From Microcaldota archaeon (lineage in GTDB: Archaea > Micrarchaeota > Micrarchaeia > Micrarchaeales > Micrarchaeaceae): 60,405 bases of DNA. Below the pieces are notes generated by a model. It was not told the origin of the DNA and made no database searches. It saw nothing but the letters and a program-made list of their open reading frames with translations. Positions 17,676 to 52,320 of this stretch are shown in pieces. A program made the translations under genes and the position numbers. The DNA lies in the NCBI GenBank assembly GCA_021816885.1, contig JAKAWS010000006.1:1-60405 (forward strand), given 5' to 3'. Every line of letters begins with the position of its first letter. Within the stretch, counting starts at the first letter, position 1.

Positions 17676-17846
17676 AAGAGTTCGGGATTTGTTGCCACTA
17701 GAATAGTATAAGAGCAGATTTGTAAGATATCATTATCACGGAGCAGTATACCCGTTCTCCCAGCTGGAGGTAAAGATTACATTGGTAGGAACGCCGTTGT
17801 TGCCGTTGCCGCTGTAGTCTTTGGAATTACCATTCAGCGGCCACCA
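17676..17846. repeat. 3' constant block shared by pilin copies A and D
   Basis: These 171 bp, covering the 3' flank and the last 37 or so codons, match 51180-51350 with a single mismatch that I can see. Identity then ends abruptly where the variable domain begins. Confidence 0.85.
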
Positions 17847-18740
17847 CCCAACGAGGTTCTGCAGGTCTATCGGCGCGCCACCGATGCCTTCAGTATAGAG
17901 CGCCTGGATCTCGCCTTTCGAAAGTGTGGCGTTGTAAATCTGGAGATTGGCAATCGATCCATTGTATTGGTATGCGGACTGCAAACCACCATATAGCGAA
18001 CCTACATTGTTGCCTATTGCATAATAGTGTGTGGTGGGGTTGAACTCAGATTGGCCTGTTGTTGAAGAAACAAATTTGCCGTTAACGTAAAATATTACAT
18101 TACCAGTGCCAACCCCTCCATTTGAAAGTGTAACTGTAATAAAGTTTATTGAACCTGCTTTTACGGCCCCTGTACTTGAGTTGGAAAAGTACCAATTTCC
18201 CGAATAACCTTGGTTCCAGAGGTGAATTTCTATTGCACCTGCAGAAGTTACTTCAAGATTCAAAGTAGCATCTGGAATGCCTTCCGAGTATATAAAATTG
18301 CCATTTATAGAGTCTACCCATGCGGATATTGTAAAGCTAGGCAGATTGTTGAGTAACGCTATACTGTTCCCGCTTATATACTCGCCGTTTTGAGTGAATG
18401 ATGCAATGAACTGCGGTATCTCGTTGGTGCATGGACCTATTTCCGATGCGGTGGTGCCAGGGCTGTTCGGCCTTAGTATCTGGCAGCTTCCCGGACTTGC
18501 CTTCGGGGAGAACGTGTAAGGATTGAACACACCGAGGGAGAAGAACGCCACCAAGACTATCGCTAGTATGAGGATCGCCCATCCGTATGTCGTTAGGTAT
18601 TCCATTGCCGACTGTGACTTCAGCCCTATCTTTTTGTCTTTAGAATGAACTATCTTTCGGCGTTGGTTTTCTGGTGTGTGTGTCACGCTTTCAAGGTTCT
18701 GCACCCACTCCGAAACCCGTCCTAACACAATCTCAAACAT
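17736..18740 (-). CDS. LamG-domain type IV pilin-like surface protein, copy A
   Basis: A 334-residue protein with an unusually long charged leader (44 residues) ending KSQSAMEYLTTYGWA, a class III (prepilin) signal peptide. After the hydrophobic helix come the conserved FNPYTFSPKASPGSCQILRPN segment, a variable LamG/concanavalin-A-like jelly roll (FTISAWVDS, YAIGNN, SIANLQIYNATLS) and a constant tail (LVGWWPLNGNSKDYSGNGNN). It should be exported, processed by a prepilin peptidase and assembled or displayed on the surface. The start ATG lies about 28 nt after a TATA-like TTATTAAAA. The leader contains (GT)5 in the sense-antisense repeat at 18674-18683. It is one of four copies in this window. 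Confidence 0.8.
   Translation of the reverse strand: MFEIVLGRVSEWVQNLESVTHTPENQRRKIVHSKDKKIGLKSQSAMEYLTTYGWAILILAIVLVAFFSLGVFNPYTFSPKASPGSCQILRPNSPGTTASEIGPCTNEIPQFIASFTQNGEYISGNSIALLNNLPSFTISAWVDSINGNFIYSEGIPDATLNLEVTSAGAIEIHLWNQGYSGNWYFSNSSTGAVKAGSINFITVTLSNGGVGTGNVIFYVNGKFVSSTTGQSEFNPTTHYYAIGNNVGSLYGGLQSAYQYNGSIANLQIYNATLSKGEIQALYTEGIGGAPIDLQNLVGWWPLNGNSKDYSGNGNNGVPTNVIFTSSWENGYTAP
18674..18683. repeat. (GT)5 tract in the leader of pilin copy A
   Basis: Ten bases of alternating GT on the plus strand encode part of VTHTP in the leader. The same codon position in copy D holds (GT)12. Five units keep copy A in frame. Confidence 0.85.
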
Positions 18741-18793
18741 GTTTCCACTCCATTAATGTGGTAAGAGCTTTTAATAACTGTTTGTTTTTGAAA
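18684..18793. repeat. 5' constant block shared by pilin copies A and D
   Basis: These 110 bp, spanning the promoter and first 19 codons, are identical by reading to 52211-52320. The flanking sequence beyond both blocks is unrelated, so each gene looks like a discrete duplicated unit of about 1.1 kb. Confidence 0.85.
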
Positions 18794-24312: not shown

Positions 24313-24560
24313 GCATGCTACGGTTTGCGCTTTGACACCACGGTATTCTGATACACTCTCGGAAAATTCGACAAAGCCAATATTTTTATACTATTGTTTG
24401 CCATCGTATCACGATGACAATGCAACAGCGCAGGAACGAAGCGAACAACGCTTCATCGTAGATTTCCAAGAGAGAGATAAATAAATTCATCCGGAAAAGG
24501 CGCGACCGGAAACAAATCCTTAAATCATCTGAGTTTGCAACAAAGTATCAAGAACCTTCC
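24313..24560. repeat. 5' block duplicated in front of pilin copies B and C
   Basis: The block starts GCATGCTACGGTTTGCGC and recurs at 26023 with few differences, including the same promoter and long leader. The offset of 1,710 bp indicates a tandem duplication of a unit containing one pilin gene. Confidence 0.8.
24381..24390 (+). promoter_or_regulatory. TATA box of pilin copy B
   Basis: TATTTTTATA lies 24-33 nt before ATG 24414 and is identical to the element at 26091-26100 in front of copy C. Confidence 0.55.
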
Positions 24561-24566
24561 GGGAAA

Positions 24567-25367
24567 GTGTTTCATCAGAAGTCGCAATCTGCGATGGAAT
24601 ATCTGATGACATACGGGTGGGCGATACTCATCATCGCAATTGTGCTGGTGGCGTTCTTCTCACTTAATCTCTTCAACCCATACACATTCGCACCGAAGGC
24701 GAGTCCGGGAAGCTGCCAGATACTAAGACCGAATGGACCGGGCAGCAACCTGTTCGTTTCTGCGGTGGGGCCGACTTGCACCACCAACGAGATACCGCAG
24801 TATGTGGCGCGGTTTAATGGTAGCGGTAGCGGTATAACTGTCCCATCTTCATCTAAAGAAATTTTTGGTAATTCTTCCTTTTCCTCTAGCGGCTACGCTA
24901 CTTGTTTTTTTAATGTTGAGTGGGTTTGTGGTGGAATTACCACAATCGAACCCAATATGTGGCAATTTGTTGCAGTAAGCAATAATCCACCAGCTAATCA
25001 GTTAAACTTATATGTGGGAGAGCAACCTGTTACAGATAATGGTCAAGGCACCAATGCAATCACCATTACTGCATGGATTTATCCTATAACTCATCAAAAT
25101 GACAATATAGTAACATGGCCAATTCTGGGTAATATCTTTAATGGCTCTATCGCAAACATCCAAGTCTACAACACCTCCCTCTCTTCAAGTCAAGTTTTTG
25201 CATTATACTCCGAAGGAATAGGAGGCACGCCAATAGATCTGCAGCATCTCGTCGGCTGGTGGCCACTGAACGGGAACTCGAACGACTACTCCGGAAACGG
25301 CAACAACGGCGTTCCTACCAACGTAATTTTCACCTCCAGCTGGGAGAATGGGTATAGTAGCCCATGA
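24567..25367 (+). CDS. LamG-domain type IV pilin-like surface protein, copy B
   Basis: The 266-residue frame from GTG 24567 begins FHQKSQSAMEYLMTYGWA, a class III signal peptide. It continues with the constant FNPYTFAPKASPGSCQILRPN segment, a variable LamG-like middle (ITITAWIYPIT, SIANIQVYNTSLS) and the constant end (LVGWWPLNGNSNDYSGNGNN). The promoter and long leader of tandem twin C are also present, starting at ATG 24414. Here the leader frame is cut by TAG at 24459-24461 where C has CAG. The gene therefore either starts internally at GTG 24567 or is switched off. The middle domain is shorter and less regular than in the other copies. Confidence 0.65.
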   Translation: MFHQKSQSAMEYLMTYGWAILIIAIVLVAFFSLNLFNPYTFAPKASPGSCQILRPNGPGSNLFVSAVGPTCTTNEIPQYVARFNGSGSGITVPSSSKEIFGNSSFSSSGYATCFFNVEWVCGGITTIEPNMWQFVAVSNNPPANQLNLYVGEQPVTDNGQGTNAITITAWIYPITHQNDNIVTWPILGNIFNGSIANIQVYNTSLSSSQVFALYSEGIGGTPIDLQHLVGWWPLNGNSNDYSGNGNNGVPTNVIFTSSWENGYSSP

Positions 25368-26123: not shown

Positions 26124-27140
26124 ATGACGATGCAACAGCGCAGGAACGAAGCGAACACAACTTCGTCGCAGATTTCCCAGAGAGAGAGAGAGATAAATAA
26201 ATTCATCCGGAAAAGATTCGGCCAGAAACAAATCCTTAAATCATCCGGGTTTGCAACAGGGCATCGAAAACCTTCCGGGAAAGCGTTTCGTCAGAAAGCG
26301 CAATCTGCGATGGAATATCTGATGACATACGGATGGGCGATACTCATCATCGCGATAGTCCTGGTGGCGTTCTTCTCCCTCAACCTCTTCAACCCCTACA
26401 CGTTTTCCCCAAAGGCGAGTCCGGGAAGCTGCCAGATACTAAGACCGAATGGCCCAGGTAGCAACCTGTTTGTGTCGGAGGTCGGATTATGCAACACCAA
26501 CGAGATACCGCAGTATGTGGCGCAGTTTAATGGCGCGGATTATATAAATATGGGAAATGTTGATGATATTACCGGCACACAAATTTCGATTTTTATATGG
26601 AACTATCCGTTTGCAGGTCAATATAGTTATCCAACGCAAGTTTCTAGGAGCGACTATCAATTAGGTTCAAATGAGACTGGTACCGGCACATTTGAAATAC
26701 GTTTTTGTATGCTTAGTGCTTGCCCCTCGACTACTCCGCCAAATACAATTAGTAGTAATACCTGGTCTCAGGTCGGTATTACTTATAATGGTTCAATTGT
26801 GACATTCTATATTAATGGCCATTCCGCAGGAAGTGTATCGGCTTCAGGATCGTTACTACCAGTACCCTCAAATCTAACTATTGGCATAGCAAGGAACCTT
26901 CTTAATCCATTCAGCGGTCAAATCTCAAACGTCCAAATCTACAACACTTCCTTCTCTCCAAGCGCGGTAAATACACTTTATACCGAAGGAATAGGAGGCA
27001 CGCCAATAGATCTGCAGCACCTCGTCGGTTGGTGGCCGCTGAACGGGAACTCGAATGACTACAGCGGCAACGGCAACAACGGCGTTCCTACCAACGTAAT
27101 TTTCACCTCCAGCTGGGAGAACGGGTATAGCAGCCCATGA
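26124..27140 (+). CDS. LamG-domain type IV pilin-like surface protein, copy C
   Basis: A 338-residue protein with a leader of about 60 residues rich in Arg, Lys and Gln, ending RQKAQSAMEYLMTYGWA, which is a class III signal peptide. The constant FNPYTFSPKASPGSCQ segment follows, then a complete LamG-like domain (ISIFIWNYPF, WSQVGITYNGSIVTFYINGH, LTIGIARN, ISNVQIYNTSFS) and the constant C-terminus (LVGWWPLNGNSNDYSGNGNN). The leader includes an (AG)7 run encoding alternating Arg/Glu. The frame is intact, so this copy is probably expressed. It is the downstream member of the B/C tandem. Confidence 0.8.
   Translation: MTMQQRRNEANTTSSQISQREREINKFIRKRFGQKQILKSSGFATGHRKPSGKAFRQKAQSAMEYLMTYGWAILIIAIVLVAFFSLNLFNPYTFSPKASPGSCQILRPNGPGSNLFVSEVGLCNTNEIPQYVAQFNGADYINMGNVDDITGTQISIFIWNYPFAGQYSYPTQVSRSDYQLGSNETGTGTFEIRFCMLSACPSTTPPNTISSNTWSQVGITYNGSIVTFYINGHSAGSVSASGSLLPVPSNLTIGIARNLLNPFSGQISNVQIYNTSFSPSAVNTLYTEGIGGTPIDLQHLVGWWPLNGNSNDYSGNGNNGVPTNVIFTSSWENGYSSP
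26179..26192. repeat. (AG)7 tract in the leader of pilin copy C
   Basis: Seven AG units inside the leader frame. Copy B has four at the same place, a difference of 6 nt that keeps frame. Gain or loss of one unit would shift the frame. Confidence 0.75.
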
Positions 27141-35568: not shown

Positions 35569-36789
35569 ATGGGAGAGATAGTAAAGGATGGTATTATCAG
35601 CATGCTGAAGGAGAGACTTCAAATAACATATAATGAGCTTTCTGATATGGCTTCAAAGAACGGTGTTTCGCGCAGCACCCTCGATGAAACAATAGCGCTT
35701 CTTGAACAGGAGAAGACAATCGCAGAGACGAGCAATGGCGGAATAAAGACCTATTATCTTCTCAAAGATCAGGACAGGCCAAAAAGAGTGCTTATAGTGG
35801 AAGACGACAAGAACATCAATAGGCTTATGTCCATAGCGATAGGAAAGAGCTTTGAGATAACACAGATATACGACGGCGGAGAGGCGATGGGGAAGATAAG
35901 GTCCATAAAGCCCGACCTCGTAGTGCTGGACCTCATGCTGCCCCACAAGGACGGGCTCGACATATGCCAAACAATAAAGAGCGATCCTGGCACAAAGGAC
36001 ACCATAGTCATAATAGTCAGCGCTATGGATCCGACTAGCAATAGATTCAAGGGCATAAAATACGGCGCCGATTACTATATACGCAAACCGTTTAATCCTG
36101 ACGAGCTAAGGAACCTTACTACGTTGTTCTTGAGCAAGAAAGGGAAGAGGTTCGACCCGCTTATAGATCTGCCAAACGACCAGAGGATATCGGAGGAAAT
36201 AGAGCGATATGTCAAGGAAGGAGAAAAATACACGATGGGCACGATAACCGTGGAAGGGCTATCAGCATACGCATCCAAGTTCGGCAGAGAAGATAGGGCT
36301 GTGGTATTAAGACTCATATCGCAGTTGATGCAAGATGTGATAAACACGGAAAAGAAGAACGCGTTCATAGGGTTCCTGAACAGCGACGAGTTCGTGATTG
36401 CGGGAAATGCGGGAGAGGTAGCTAGCGTAGTAAGGGCGGCGACAAAAGAGTTTGAGGACGTTACCCCGTTCATACTCCAGGATCACGGATACAAGAACGC
36501 AGCCATCGACTTTGTGGATAACCTCTTCGAATCGAACGAGATACCAAAACTTTCACTGATATACAAGGAGACCCGAAAAGAGAGGTTAAAGGAGAGGAGA
36601 GACAGGATACTCAAGGACAAACGGTCAGCAGAACGCAAGGGCAAAGGGGAGGTAGGGCTATATACATACAGCGAGCTGCAGGAACTGTTGGGCAAGGATG
36701 ATCTAGATGTATCCATAAAGAGGGATTCGCAAGGAGTGAAGCTGAACGTGGGAAAGAAAGCTGACAACGATGGGAAAAAGAAAGATTGA
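35569..36789 (+). CDS. wHTH - REC - GGDEF-like response regulator
   Basis: A 406-residue protein with three parts. Residues 1-66 form a winged helix-turn-helix. Residues 72-188 form a receiver domain with acidic pair D79/D80, phosphoacceptor D121 (LVVLDLMLPHKDG), S151 and K173. Residues 195-330 resemble a GGDEF domain (DPLIDLPNDQRISEE and a NSDEF signature at 271-275). The GGDEF glycines are replaced, so cyclic-nucleotide synthesis is doubtful. The C-terminus is a Lys/Arg-rich helix. No histidine kinase is nearby. It overlaps the downstream pilin gene by 20 nt and so probably regulates the surface-protein operon. Confidence 0.75.
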   Translation: MGEIVKDGIISMLKERLQITYNELSDMASKNGVSRSTLDETIALLEQEKTIAETSNGGIKTYYLLKDQDRPKRVLIVEDDKNINRLMSIAIGKSFEITQIYDGGEAMGKIRSIKPDLVVLDLMLPHKDGLDICQTIKSDPGTKDTIVIIVSAMDPTSNRFKGIKYGADYYIRKPFNPDELRNLTTLFLSKKGKRFDPLIDLPNDQRISEEIERYVKEGEKYTMGTITVEGLSAYASKFGREDRAVVLRLISQLMQDVINTEKKNAFIGFLNSDEFVIAGNAGEVASVVRAATKEFEDVTPFILQDHGYKNAAIDFVDNLFESNEIPKLSLIYKETRKERLKERRDRILKDKRSAERKGKGEVGLYTYSELQELLGKDDLDVSIKRDSQGVKLNVGKKADNDGKKKD

Positions 36790-37348
36790 TGCTTGCGTGC
36801 CGCGGCAGAATGGCATACTCAAGGCTCAGTCGGCACTTGACTATCTAATATCATATGGCTCTGCCCTTCTGATAATCGCGGCAGCCATATATATCATAGC
36901 TTCATCCGGAGTACTGACTCCTTATCTCTCAGGAAGCTCTTGCACACCTGCGCCAGGCTACATATGCAATGCGTATGCGATAAACAGCTCCGGAGTGCTA
37001 ACTGTGAAGCTTGCGCAGGTGACTGGAGTAGGACTCCAGATAAAAGGCGCAGCCTGCTCCACTGCAGTAAATTCCACGAACGCATCTATGCCCAGATACG
37101 GCAACATTTATGTTAAAAACTACGCAGCATATCCTGCCTCATATCCGAACAATGATCTTCTCAACCAAATGGTAATCCAAAGCGATTCTTCCAATTCAAT
37201 ATACGTATATTGCTATGGTGCAGGTGGGCATGCCTCGTCCAAACCAGGGAACATCTTCAACGGCTATTTATTCATAAACTATACCATAGCAGGGCTGACA
37301 GCCAGCAACATAAGGGAAGTGGCAGAGATAACCACAAAATACAGTTAG
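36770..37348 (+). CDS. Type IV pilin-like protein
   Basis: A 192-residue protein with a class III signal peptide. The charged leader ends ILKAQSALDYLISYGS, with a hydrophobic helix (about residues 26-48) and an Asn/Ser/Tyr-rich domain after it. A pair of early cysteines (SSCTPAPGYICN) and two later ones may form disulfides. It lacks the LamG domain of copies A-D. It overlaps the regulator gene by 20 nt and is followed by an exported Ig-like protein. GTG at 36797 is an alternative start. Confidence 0.7.
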   Translation: MGKRKIDACVPRQNGILKAQSALDYLISYGSALLIIAAAIYIIASSGVLTPYLSGSSCTPAPGYICNAYAINSSGVLTVKLAQVTGVGLQIKGAACSTAVNSTNASMPRYGNIYVKNYAAYPASYPNNDLLNQMVIQSDSSNSIYVYCYGAGGHASSKPGNIFNGYLFINYTIAGLTASNIREVAEITTKYS

Positions 37349-51179: not shown

Positions 51180-51350
51180 AAGAGTTCGGGATTTGTTGCC
51201 ACTAGAATAGTATAAGAGCAGATTTGTAAGATATCATTATCACGGAGCAGTATACCCGTTTTCCCAGCTGGAGGTAAAGATTACATTGGTAGGAACGCCG
51301 TTGTTGCCGTTGCCGCTGTAGTCTTTGGAATTACCATTCAGCGGCCACCA
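51180..51350. repeat. 3' constant block of pilin copy D
   Basis: Matches 17676-17846 of copy A with a single visible mismatch over 171 bp, then diverges at the variable domain. Confidence 0.85.
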
Positions 51351-52118
51351 ACCGACGAGATTCTGAATGTTTGTTGGAGCACCGCCTATTCCTTCCTGGT
51401 AAAGAGCCGTTATTTCTGGTTGTGAGAGCGAGGTGTTGTAGATTTGGACGTTAGAAATCGAGCCGTTAAACCAGCCCACTCCACAATACATTTCACTTCC
51501 TATACAACTCACACCACTCTGGGCTTGGAAAGCATTTGCTGATGCTCCGCTGTTATCAAGTTCAGAATAACCCCCACCATACAAATAGATGTATTTGTTA
51601 TTGCTACTATAATTATATGACCAGACAACAAAGTACCACACATTGTCTGCTAAAGCTTTGTTACTGCCTATATCATCGCCGTAAAATCCGAAATAAAGGC
51701 CATCACTACGTATTACAAGATGCATGCAAGAATTAACATAACATGTTCCCGAAGCATTACTCTCCCCGAAAACTCCAAGGTCACTATAGGTAGTATACTG
51801 TGCAGTATTGGGGCTTTTTATCCATGCTGATACTGTGAAGTTTCTATTAAACAAAGGAACAAACGATGTCAGATCAATCAGGCTGTGGCTGGCAGTAGAA
51901 AATGAACCAACATACTGCGGTATCTCGTTGGTGTTGCATAATCCGACCTCCGACACGAATAGGTTGCTACCCGGCCCGTTCGGCCTTAGTATCTGGCAGC
52001 TTCCAGGACTCGCCTTCGGGGAGAACGTATATGGGTTGAAGAGGTTAAGGGAGAAGAACGCTACCAGCACAATTGCGATGATGAGTATGGCCCATCCGTA
52101 TGTCATCAGATATTCCAT
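51240..52118 (-). CDS. LamG-domain type IV pilin-like surface protein, copy D (currently out of frame)
   Basis: The core frame of 292 residues begins MEYLMTYGWA and has the constant FNPYTFSPKASPGSCQILRPN segment. A LamG-like variable domain follows (FTVSAWIKSPN, DNVWYFVVWSYNY, SISNVQIYNTSLS), then the constant tail (LVGWWPLNGNSKDYSGNGNN). The promoter and promoter-proximal ATG (52267) are identical to copy A, but a (GT)12 tract at 52187-52210 puts that ATG out of frame and it stops at TAG just after the tract. In the core frame, a TGA lies directly upstream of the tract, and no start codon gives the KSQSA signal site. Eleven or fourteen units would restore one frame of about 343 codons. Confidence 0.75.
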   Translation of the reverse strand: MEYLMTYGWAILIIAIVLVAFFSLNLFNPYTFSPKASPGSCQILRPNGPGSNLFVSEVGLCNTNEIPQYVGSFSTASHSLIDLTSFVPLFNRNFTVSAWIKSPNTAQYTTYSDLGVFGESNASGTCYVNSCMHLVIRSDGLYFGFYGDDIGSNKALADNVWYFVVWSYNYSSNNKYIYLYGGGYSELDNSGASANAFQAQSGVSCIGSEMYCGVGWFNGSISNVQIYNTSLSQPEITALYQEGIGGAPTNIQNLVGWWPLNGNSKDYSGNGNNGVPTNVIFTSSWENGYTAP

Positions 52119-52186
52119 CGCAGACTGCGACTTCAGTCCTACCTTTACGTCTTTAGAATGAGCTATTTTTCGGCGTGGGTTTTCTG

Positions 52187-52210
52187 GTGTGTGTGTGTGT
52201 GTGTGTGTGT
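52187..52210. repeat. (GT)12 microsatellite in the leader of pilin copy D
   Basis: Twenty-four bases of pure GT inside the coding leader. Copy A has (GT)5 at the same position and flanks are identical. The 14-nt difference shifts the frame by 2. Frame is kept for 5, 8, 11 or 14 units. Confidence 0.95.
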
Positions 52211-52320
52211 CACGCTTTCAAGGTTCTGCACCCACTCCGAAACCCGTCCTAACACAATCTCAAACATGTTTCCACTCCATTAATGTGGTAAGAGCTTTTA
52301 ATAACTGTTTGTTTTTGAAA
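52211..52320. repeat. 5' constant block of pilin copy D
   Basis: Identical by reading to 18684-18793 over 110 bp, including the TATA-like TTATTAAAA promoter and the first 19 codons from ATG 52267. Confidence 0.85.

Follow-up and report, generated by a model that had tools for sequence, protein, structure and literature searches.

Pilin-like genes of this Micrarchaeota genome probably (we estimate a probability of about 0.7) belong to a dispersed modular family of type IV pilin-like proteins, the members of which are both phase-variable and mosaic adhesive pilins. In the arrangement that we propose, each gene would combine a constant membrane and pilus-assembly N segment, a copy-specific pentraxin/LamG jelly-roll core, and a constant tail. 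Recombination at the N and tail blocks, whether by gene conversion or by double crossover, would homogenise the ends within a genome and may swap cores from one copy to another or with DNA that enters the cell. Some copies carry an (AC)n or (AG)n tract that lies in the leader ORF, after the start codon and ahead of the prepilin-type signal. There, slippage by one unit would shift the pilin body in or out of frame (phase variation) and recombination would join different promoter and start regions to shared pilin bodies. The resulting varied, stochastically expressed adhesins may contact a host archaeon.

Pilin-LamG genes in the window and in the phylum

The window, i.e., the whole stretch of 60,405 nucleotides that we analysed, is contig 16 of the source genome G000 (795,193 bp in 21 contigs). 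It encodes four pilin-LamG genes, A to D, each with a short, hydrophobic, pilin-like N segment followed by a LamG core and a GWWPLNGN tail; the initial annotation had recognised two, A and D. Their features are as follows.

17736-18740, minus strand: gene A, pilin-LamG gene, 334 aa
18405-18614, minus strand: N segment of A
17940-18404, minus strand: LamG core of A
17739-17939, minus strand: tail of A
18674-18793, minus strand: 5′ block of A, made up of promoter region, leader codons 1 to 19 (ATG at 18740) and AC tract
18674-18683, minus strand: (AC)5 tract in the leader ORF of A, in frame (ON)
17676-17846, minus strand: 3′ block of A, 111 bp of coding end including the stop plus 60 bp of 3′ flank
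24567-25367, plus strand: gene B, pilin-LamG gene with GA-type leader
26124-27140, plus strand: gene C, pilin-LamG gene of 338 aa, in frame (ON), with GA-type leader
26179-26193, plus strand: (AG)7.5 tract in the leader ORF of C
51240-52127, minus strand: gene D, intact mature pilin-LamG body of 295 codons
51909-52127, minus strand: N segment of D
51444-51908, minus strand: core of D
51243-51443, minus strand: tail of D
52201-52320, minus strand: 5′ block of D, 120/120 identical to that of A
52187-52210, minus strand: (AC)12 tract of D
51180-51350, minus strand: 3′ block of D, common to A

Because the leader of B has an in-frame TAG (24459-24461), GTG 24567 is the sole remaining start of this gene; the otherwise very similar G000 copy C5p has TGG at that codon. 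The window also has a small pilin-like ORF of 192 aa without LamG (36770-37348), with the same kind of signal motif. The GWWPLNGN tail is present in 14 genes of G000, to which one N-terminal fragment at a contig edge can be added. Since contigs C1, C5, and C6 each end at or close to a pilin copy, the true copy number in G000 may be higher.

The tail family was found in all 59 genomes searched, G000 counted in. Judged by the best 80 of 473 confirmed loci, a selection that makes the genome sets incomplete, genomes with related proteins were nearly all Candidatus Micrarchaeota MAGs. For comparison we used G001 (YP3.bin43), of the same genus as G000, and G038 (FK1.bin85), a single contig of 771,545 bp. 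Elsewhere, a locus in G010 (G010:C1:584315-590410) has four equal-score tail matches at a spacing of exactly 1974 bp, either a tandem array or an assembly artefact, and in G000 (L070, G000:C20:40500-48500) large surface-type ORFs of 509, 590, and 929 aa form a cluster, two of them with LamG cores in tandem plus the GWWPL-like element.

The PF13385 profile matched A, C, and D above its cut-off, and B scored 26.7 bits against a cut-off of 27.6. An AF2 model of C (86-sequence alignment, pLDDT 83.4, pTM 0.82) has a jelly-roll of the pentraxin/LamG fold with 4dqa as best structural match (Z 18.7, rmsd 3.0, 194 aligned); a sequence search of solved structures with C gave no match at E ≤ 0.1. By profile and predicted fold the core is thus a LamG/ConA-like jelly-roll domain, a fold that does not imply a ligand. 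At the N terminus, a KSQSAMEYL-type motif was recognised by eye, and residues 2-26 form a helix in the C model. T2SSE ATPases are present in G000. The Pfam search returned no class III signal match in these pilins, and NCBIfam gave nothing but weak TafC fimbrial matches, far under the cut-off. We rejected a circular permutation of LamG because sequential structural alignments run through the tail in order, with residues 65-279 of the C model aligned to 130-380 of 4dqa, a pentraxin-type domain. The permutation had been considered because the tail resembles the usual first strand of LamG and because, in a protein encoded on C20, the tail element precedes a core.

Separate histories of ends and cores

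Genes A and D share nearly identical ends around unrelated cores, and the initial annotation had rightly noted how little sequence their LamG middles have in common. The 3′ blocks match at 170 of 171 positions (60/60 in the flank and 110/111 in the last coding part), with the one mismatch reported earlier, and the abrupt boundary described at that time was borne out: the block adjoins 117 bp with 40 mismatches (66% identity; Fisher p 6e-17). The 5′ blocks have no mismatches at all and extend over 120 bp rather than the 110 bp first given; what had been called a constant 5′ end is promoter plus leader rather than pilin domain, and it stops exactly at the AC tract. Between the blocks, the pilin N-terminal part of A is only 83% identical to that of D, and outside the unit identity is 26-29%. 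Since non-coding and synonymous sites of the 3′ block are identical right beside strong divergence, selection on the protein is insufficient to account for it.

We then compared tail-bearing proteins segment by segment, as the initial annotation had proposed, with 108 distinct proteins of 230-360 aa from 31 genomes that had recognisable N and tail marks. This set does not include C1 and C5p, which are truncated by contig edges. Scoring covered the multi-copy genomes (n = 97 proteins), as opposed to 11 genomes with a single copy. The ends group by genome and the cores do not: the best match lay within the same genome for 75/97 N ends and 63/97 tails but for only 8/97 cores, against 6.1 expected by chance. 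Where the best core match had E < 1e-20, it was in another genome in 17 of 19 cases. The core of C5a, for example, is 51% identical to that of L181, while for its N segment identity is 67% with L181 and 98.6% with another copy of the same genome as C5a; the core of L239r is 61% identical to that of L192. Among 11 G000 copies, N and tail distances were uncorrelated (Mantel r 0.11, p 0.23).

Median pN/pS values among G000 copies were 0.023/0.36 for N (78 pairs), 0.58/0.79 for the core (66 pairs), and 0.13/0.53 for the tail (66 pairs), with C6 and C20 left out. In 7 of 14 genomes with at least three copies, the median pS of N was at least 0.68, and several of these had amino acid identities near 0.9 or higher. 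Several genomes thus conserve the protein sequence of the ends although their synonymous sites are saturated, so that homogenisation at the DNA level need not be recent. By comparison of synonymous sites, recent homogenisation is clear in G000, in the three variable copies of G001, and in JAJZEU, JAJZBL, and JAJYVH, but not in genomes such as JAJYJW.

Synteny with G001 separates ends from cores at individual sites. At three sites with shared flanking genes, the ends are related at 67-78% (N) and 64-76% (tail) and the cores are at background (28-33%): C6 and L160_2999, with a distinct N type (N 67, tail 76, core 28, z 3.0), C5a and L247_1226 (N 75, tail 64, core 33), and the C5b site (N 78, tail 72, core 31). 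The C5b core is instead 51% identical (z 25) to the non-syntenic G001 copy adjoining the C6 site. The pair C20 and L248r are ordinary orthologues, congruent throughout (N 80, core 83, tail 87% aa); because the C20 core diverges no faster than its ends, LamG cores are not inherently fast-evolving. No pilin was found in G001 at the window sites A, B/C, and D, though the flanking genes are conserved, one flank of the A site being 83% identical over 233 bp; pilin genes are therefore also gained and lost as wholes. The B/C site in G001 is occupied by a single open frame of 1407 codons, apparently a surface protein (L308, G001:C3:263800-269600).

Taken together, the best-match split and the core mismatch at syntenic sites give good support, as history, to recombination through the N and tail blocks that would have exchanged cores and homogenised ends. 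The earlier proposal that gene conversion through constant blocks swaps domains is upheld in this historical sense. Congruence of ends and centres, named beforehand as evidence against the proposal, was found in C20 only, which serves as a control. If the copies were instead ordinary paralogues, recently duplicated, whose ends are held by strong purifying selection and whose cores diversify fast under selection, with no recombination, the low pN of the N segment (0.023 in G000) and its conservation as protein despite saturated synonymous sites in some genomes would follow from real constraint. We regard this account as highly improbable, since it is largely contradicted by the 3′ block, with its identical non-coding flank and synonymous sites, and by the best-match test, which places the nearest relatives of cores in other genomes; the slow C20 core also speaks against it. 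A different history, in which pilin genes move as wholes, being gained, lost, and acquired from other species, with conversion merely smoothing their ends, draws on the pilin-free sites in G001, on the core matches in other genomes, and on the small-pilin neighbour of C5b, which pairs with a LamG pilin elsewhere in G001. It is conceivable but rather unlikely as the whole explanation, because C6 has orthologue-like ends around an unrelated core, for which exchange inside the gene is needed, and because N and tail distances in G000 are uncorrelated. A diversity-generating retroelement was considered separately and set aside, as the cores differ domain-wide with indels, unlike a variable repeat.

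Dinucleotide tracts in the leaders

The AC-type leader is common to A, D, C13a, C13b, C21a, and C21b, with 5, 12, 13, ∼4, 15, and 15 units, respectively. Tracts of at least seven AC units occur at four places in G000, and every one is a pilin leader. In a set of 301 genomes from the phylum, (AC)≥9 was found at 17 places in 7 genomes, all of one order (G000, 4; G038, 2; G181, 2; G183, 3; G203, 1; G205, 1; G218, 4). Sixteen of these lie in pilin leaders, including one in G203 that resembles a small pilin without LamG and two that are cut by a contig end inside the pilin; the 17th sits 83 bp from a contig end and has matching flanks. The odds of such placement by chance are ∼2e-36, a rough value that assumes 20 genes with 250-bp leaders per genome. 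Within the 615,663 bp of the best 80 of 473 confirmed loci, all five dinucleotide tracts of at least six units are in pilin leaders, and the four tracts outside pilin leaders have exactly five units each. The leaders of L166, L174, and L200 fall outside the leader motif and were recovered separately. Long tracts are rare (7/301 genomes for AC), and most pilin copies have none. The initial annotation had passed over these tracts, as well as B, C, and the gain and loss of whole genes by site. AG tracts were rejected as a wide marker, as (AG)≥8 occurs in only 2/59 genomes and neither locus is a LamG pilin; the case for AG outside G000 and LL2.bin4 (L174) is weak. At L154 (G024:C15:12349), (AG)8 comes right after an ATG and, judged by eye, is out of frame with a glycosyltransferase-like ORF; this may be a contingency locus of another type.

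Each of the 27 genes checked has an ATG 5′ of the tract, at a distance of 1-20 codons. With tract lengths taken as the MAG consensus, one per locus, the upstream ATG is in frame with the pilin for 6 of 16 tracts (C21a, L242, L284, L286, L289, and L297), close to the one-third expected if tract length bore no relation to frame. Seven lack any in-frame ATG, GTG, or TTG (D, C13a, L241, L285, L287, L288, and L298), and three are ambiguous, C21b with only a GTG and L290 and L291 with an ATG 3′ of the tract. In D, the pilin is in a different frame from the leader ATG at 52267 (OFF), and the body is intact, its N segment differing from that of C with pN 0 and pS 0.375. Five G038 copies form a ladder of 4, 6, 7, 11, and 11 units, two ON and three OFF. 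One OFF copy, L241 (G038:C1:739713-741936), is, in addition, interrupted immediately ahead of its tail by ∼1.2 kb of other sequence. As judged by eye, several copies come with a TATA-like leader and an ATG of their own. These genes thus have two features of phase-variable loci, a long tract within the 5′ coding part and both ON and OFF copies with intact bodies, and we infer from tract placement and reading frames that AC/AG slippage would toggle translation.

The tract is also the exact joint between unrelated 5′ ends and shared pilin bodies, as seen at four junctions, where recombination may have swapped promoters. To the right of the tract, C21a is 93-97% identical to A, D, C13a, and C21b and 75% to C13b; to the left, it is 67-68% identical to the first four and 63-68% to the AC-type copies overall, close to shuffled sequences with a mean of 57 and a maximum of 67. 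Similarly, identities left and right of the tract are 68-70% and 89-92% for L238 against L237 and L239 in G038, and 62% and 85% for the LL2.bin4 pair L166/L200. The left side of L287@5577 is 95% identical to L200, and its right side is 91% identical to L287@1595.

The same tracts might be neutral microsatellites in a 5′ untranslated leader, with translation starting downstream and tract length having no effect on expression. Possible downstream starts exist. In 6/6 G000 AC leaders (by eye), a CTG occupies the usual start position, three codons ahead of where the mature protein begins, and some G218 copies have in-frame ATGs after the tract; such an ATG is present in L290, L291, and L297, the last of which has them on both sides. 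However, other lineages have no conserved alternative start at this point (TTA or none in several G038 copies, GCG in L166), and both the constant upstream ATG and the concentration of 16/17 (AC)≥9 places at this single gene position make neutrality improbable. It is also very unlikely that short-read MAG contigs were misjoined at repeated pilin ends. The G000 contigs ending at or near pilin copies are of the kind that could mislead in this way, but the pattern recurs in several unrelated assemblies, including the single contig of G038, and the junctions are at the same place in three lineages. Our preferred reading of phase-variable, mosaic pilins can be extended to a two-layer variation of an archaeal surface, in which (AC)n would be an on/off switch and a joint between promoter-start and body, atop LamG core exchange; we give this extension roughly even odds.

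Relation to known systems and significance

Repeat-driven phase variation has been described as a bacterial bet-hedging strategy, mainly from bacterial pathogens. Gonococcal pilE/pilS is a type IV pilin system with a constant N end, a variable region, and exchange through conserved blocks. The genes described here resemble it in all three respects, and the incongruent segment histories expected of pilE-type antigenic variation were found; they differ in that several copies have their own leader, where pilE-type variation has one expression site fed by silent promoterless copies, and in that the variable part is the whole LamG core rather than the hypervariable loops of pilE. To simple sequence repeat contingency loci of Neisseria, Haemophilus, and Campylobacter, as presented in the available text of the sources (PMC11868660, PMC5084427, PMC2651432, PMC6321876), the likeness lies in a long tract of short units in the 5′ coding region of surface genes, in random frame across copies, and in OFF copies with intact bodies. 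In contrast to those bacterial loci, the pilins are archaeal, the tract doubles as a recombination junction, and slippage is suggested by sequence. In the text available of PMC11868660, archaea are treated merely as a future extension.

Single components have parallels elsewhere, here too as far as the available text of each source goes. The modular pilins PilB and PilC of S. sanguinis join a pilin N module to a ConA-like lectin module (PMC8179133), but as single bacterial genes rather than a multi-copy mosaic archaeal family. The hypervariable VARTIG modules of Thermococcales belong to an archaeal surface protein in which recombination, apparently across strains or species, has diversified a domain (PMC8416519); there, Ig domains sit in a large protein and the text reports no repeat-based frame switch. 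An expansion of LamG proteins in DPANN, some linked to T4P loci, has been described for Mia14/ARMAN (PMC5498576, PMC6336744) and concerns the same kind of proteins, with no mention of mosaicism or tracts in that text. Haloferax PilA1-6 share a nearly identical H-domain, tied to assembly and motility control, and differ in the rest (PMC4371748); they are likewise several pilins with a constant N region, and the text mentions no LamG core. In the literature on archaeal and DPANN phase variation and slipped-strand mispairing, of which coverage was partial, we found no phase variation of an archaeal pilin.

Contact with a host archaeon is the probable role of these proteins, by analogy with the symbiotic life of ARMAN relatives described in the available text of PMC5498576; surface display, a ligand, and this purpose are what we infer for the pilins. 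If the main reading is correct, host-attached archaea would face variable partners or viruses, pressure enough for switchable adhesins, and AC tract length would be a readable marker in metagenomes for testing the switching. Should the two-layer reading hold as well, host-dependent nano-archaea would possess combinatorial, stochastic adhesin repertoires, and the family would be an archaeal instance of repeat-driven phase variation.
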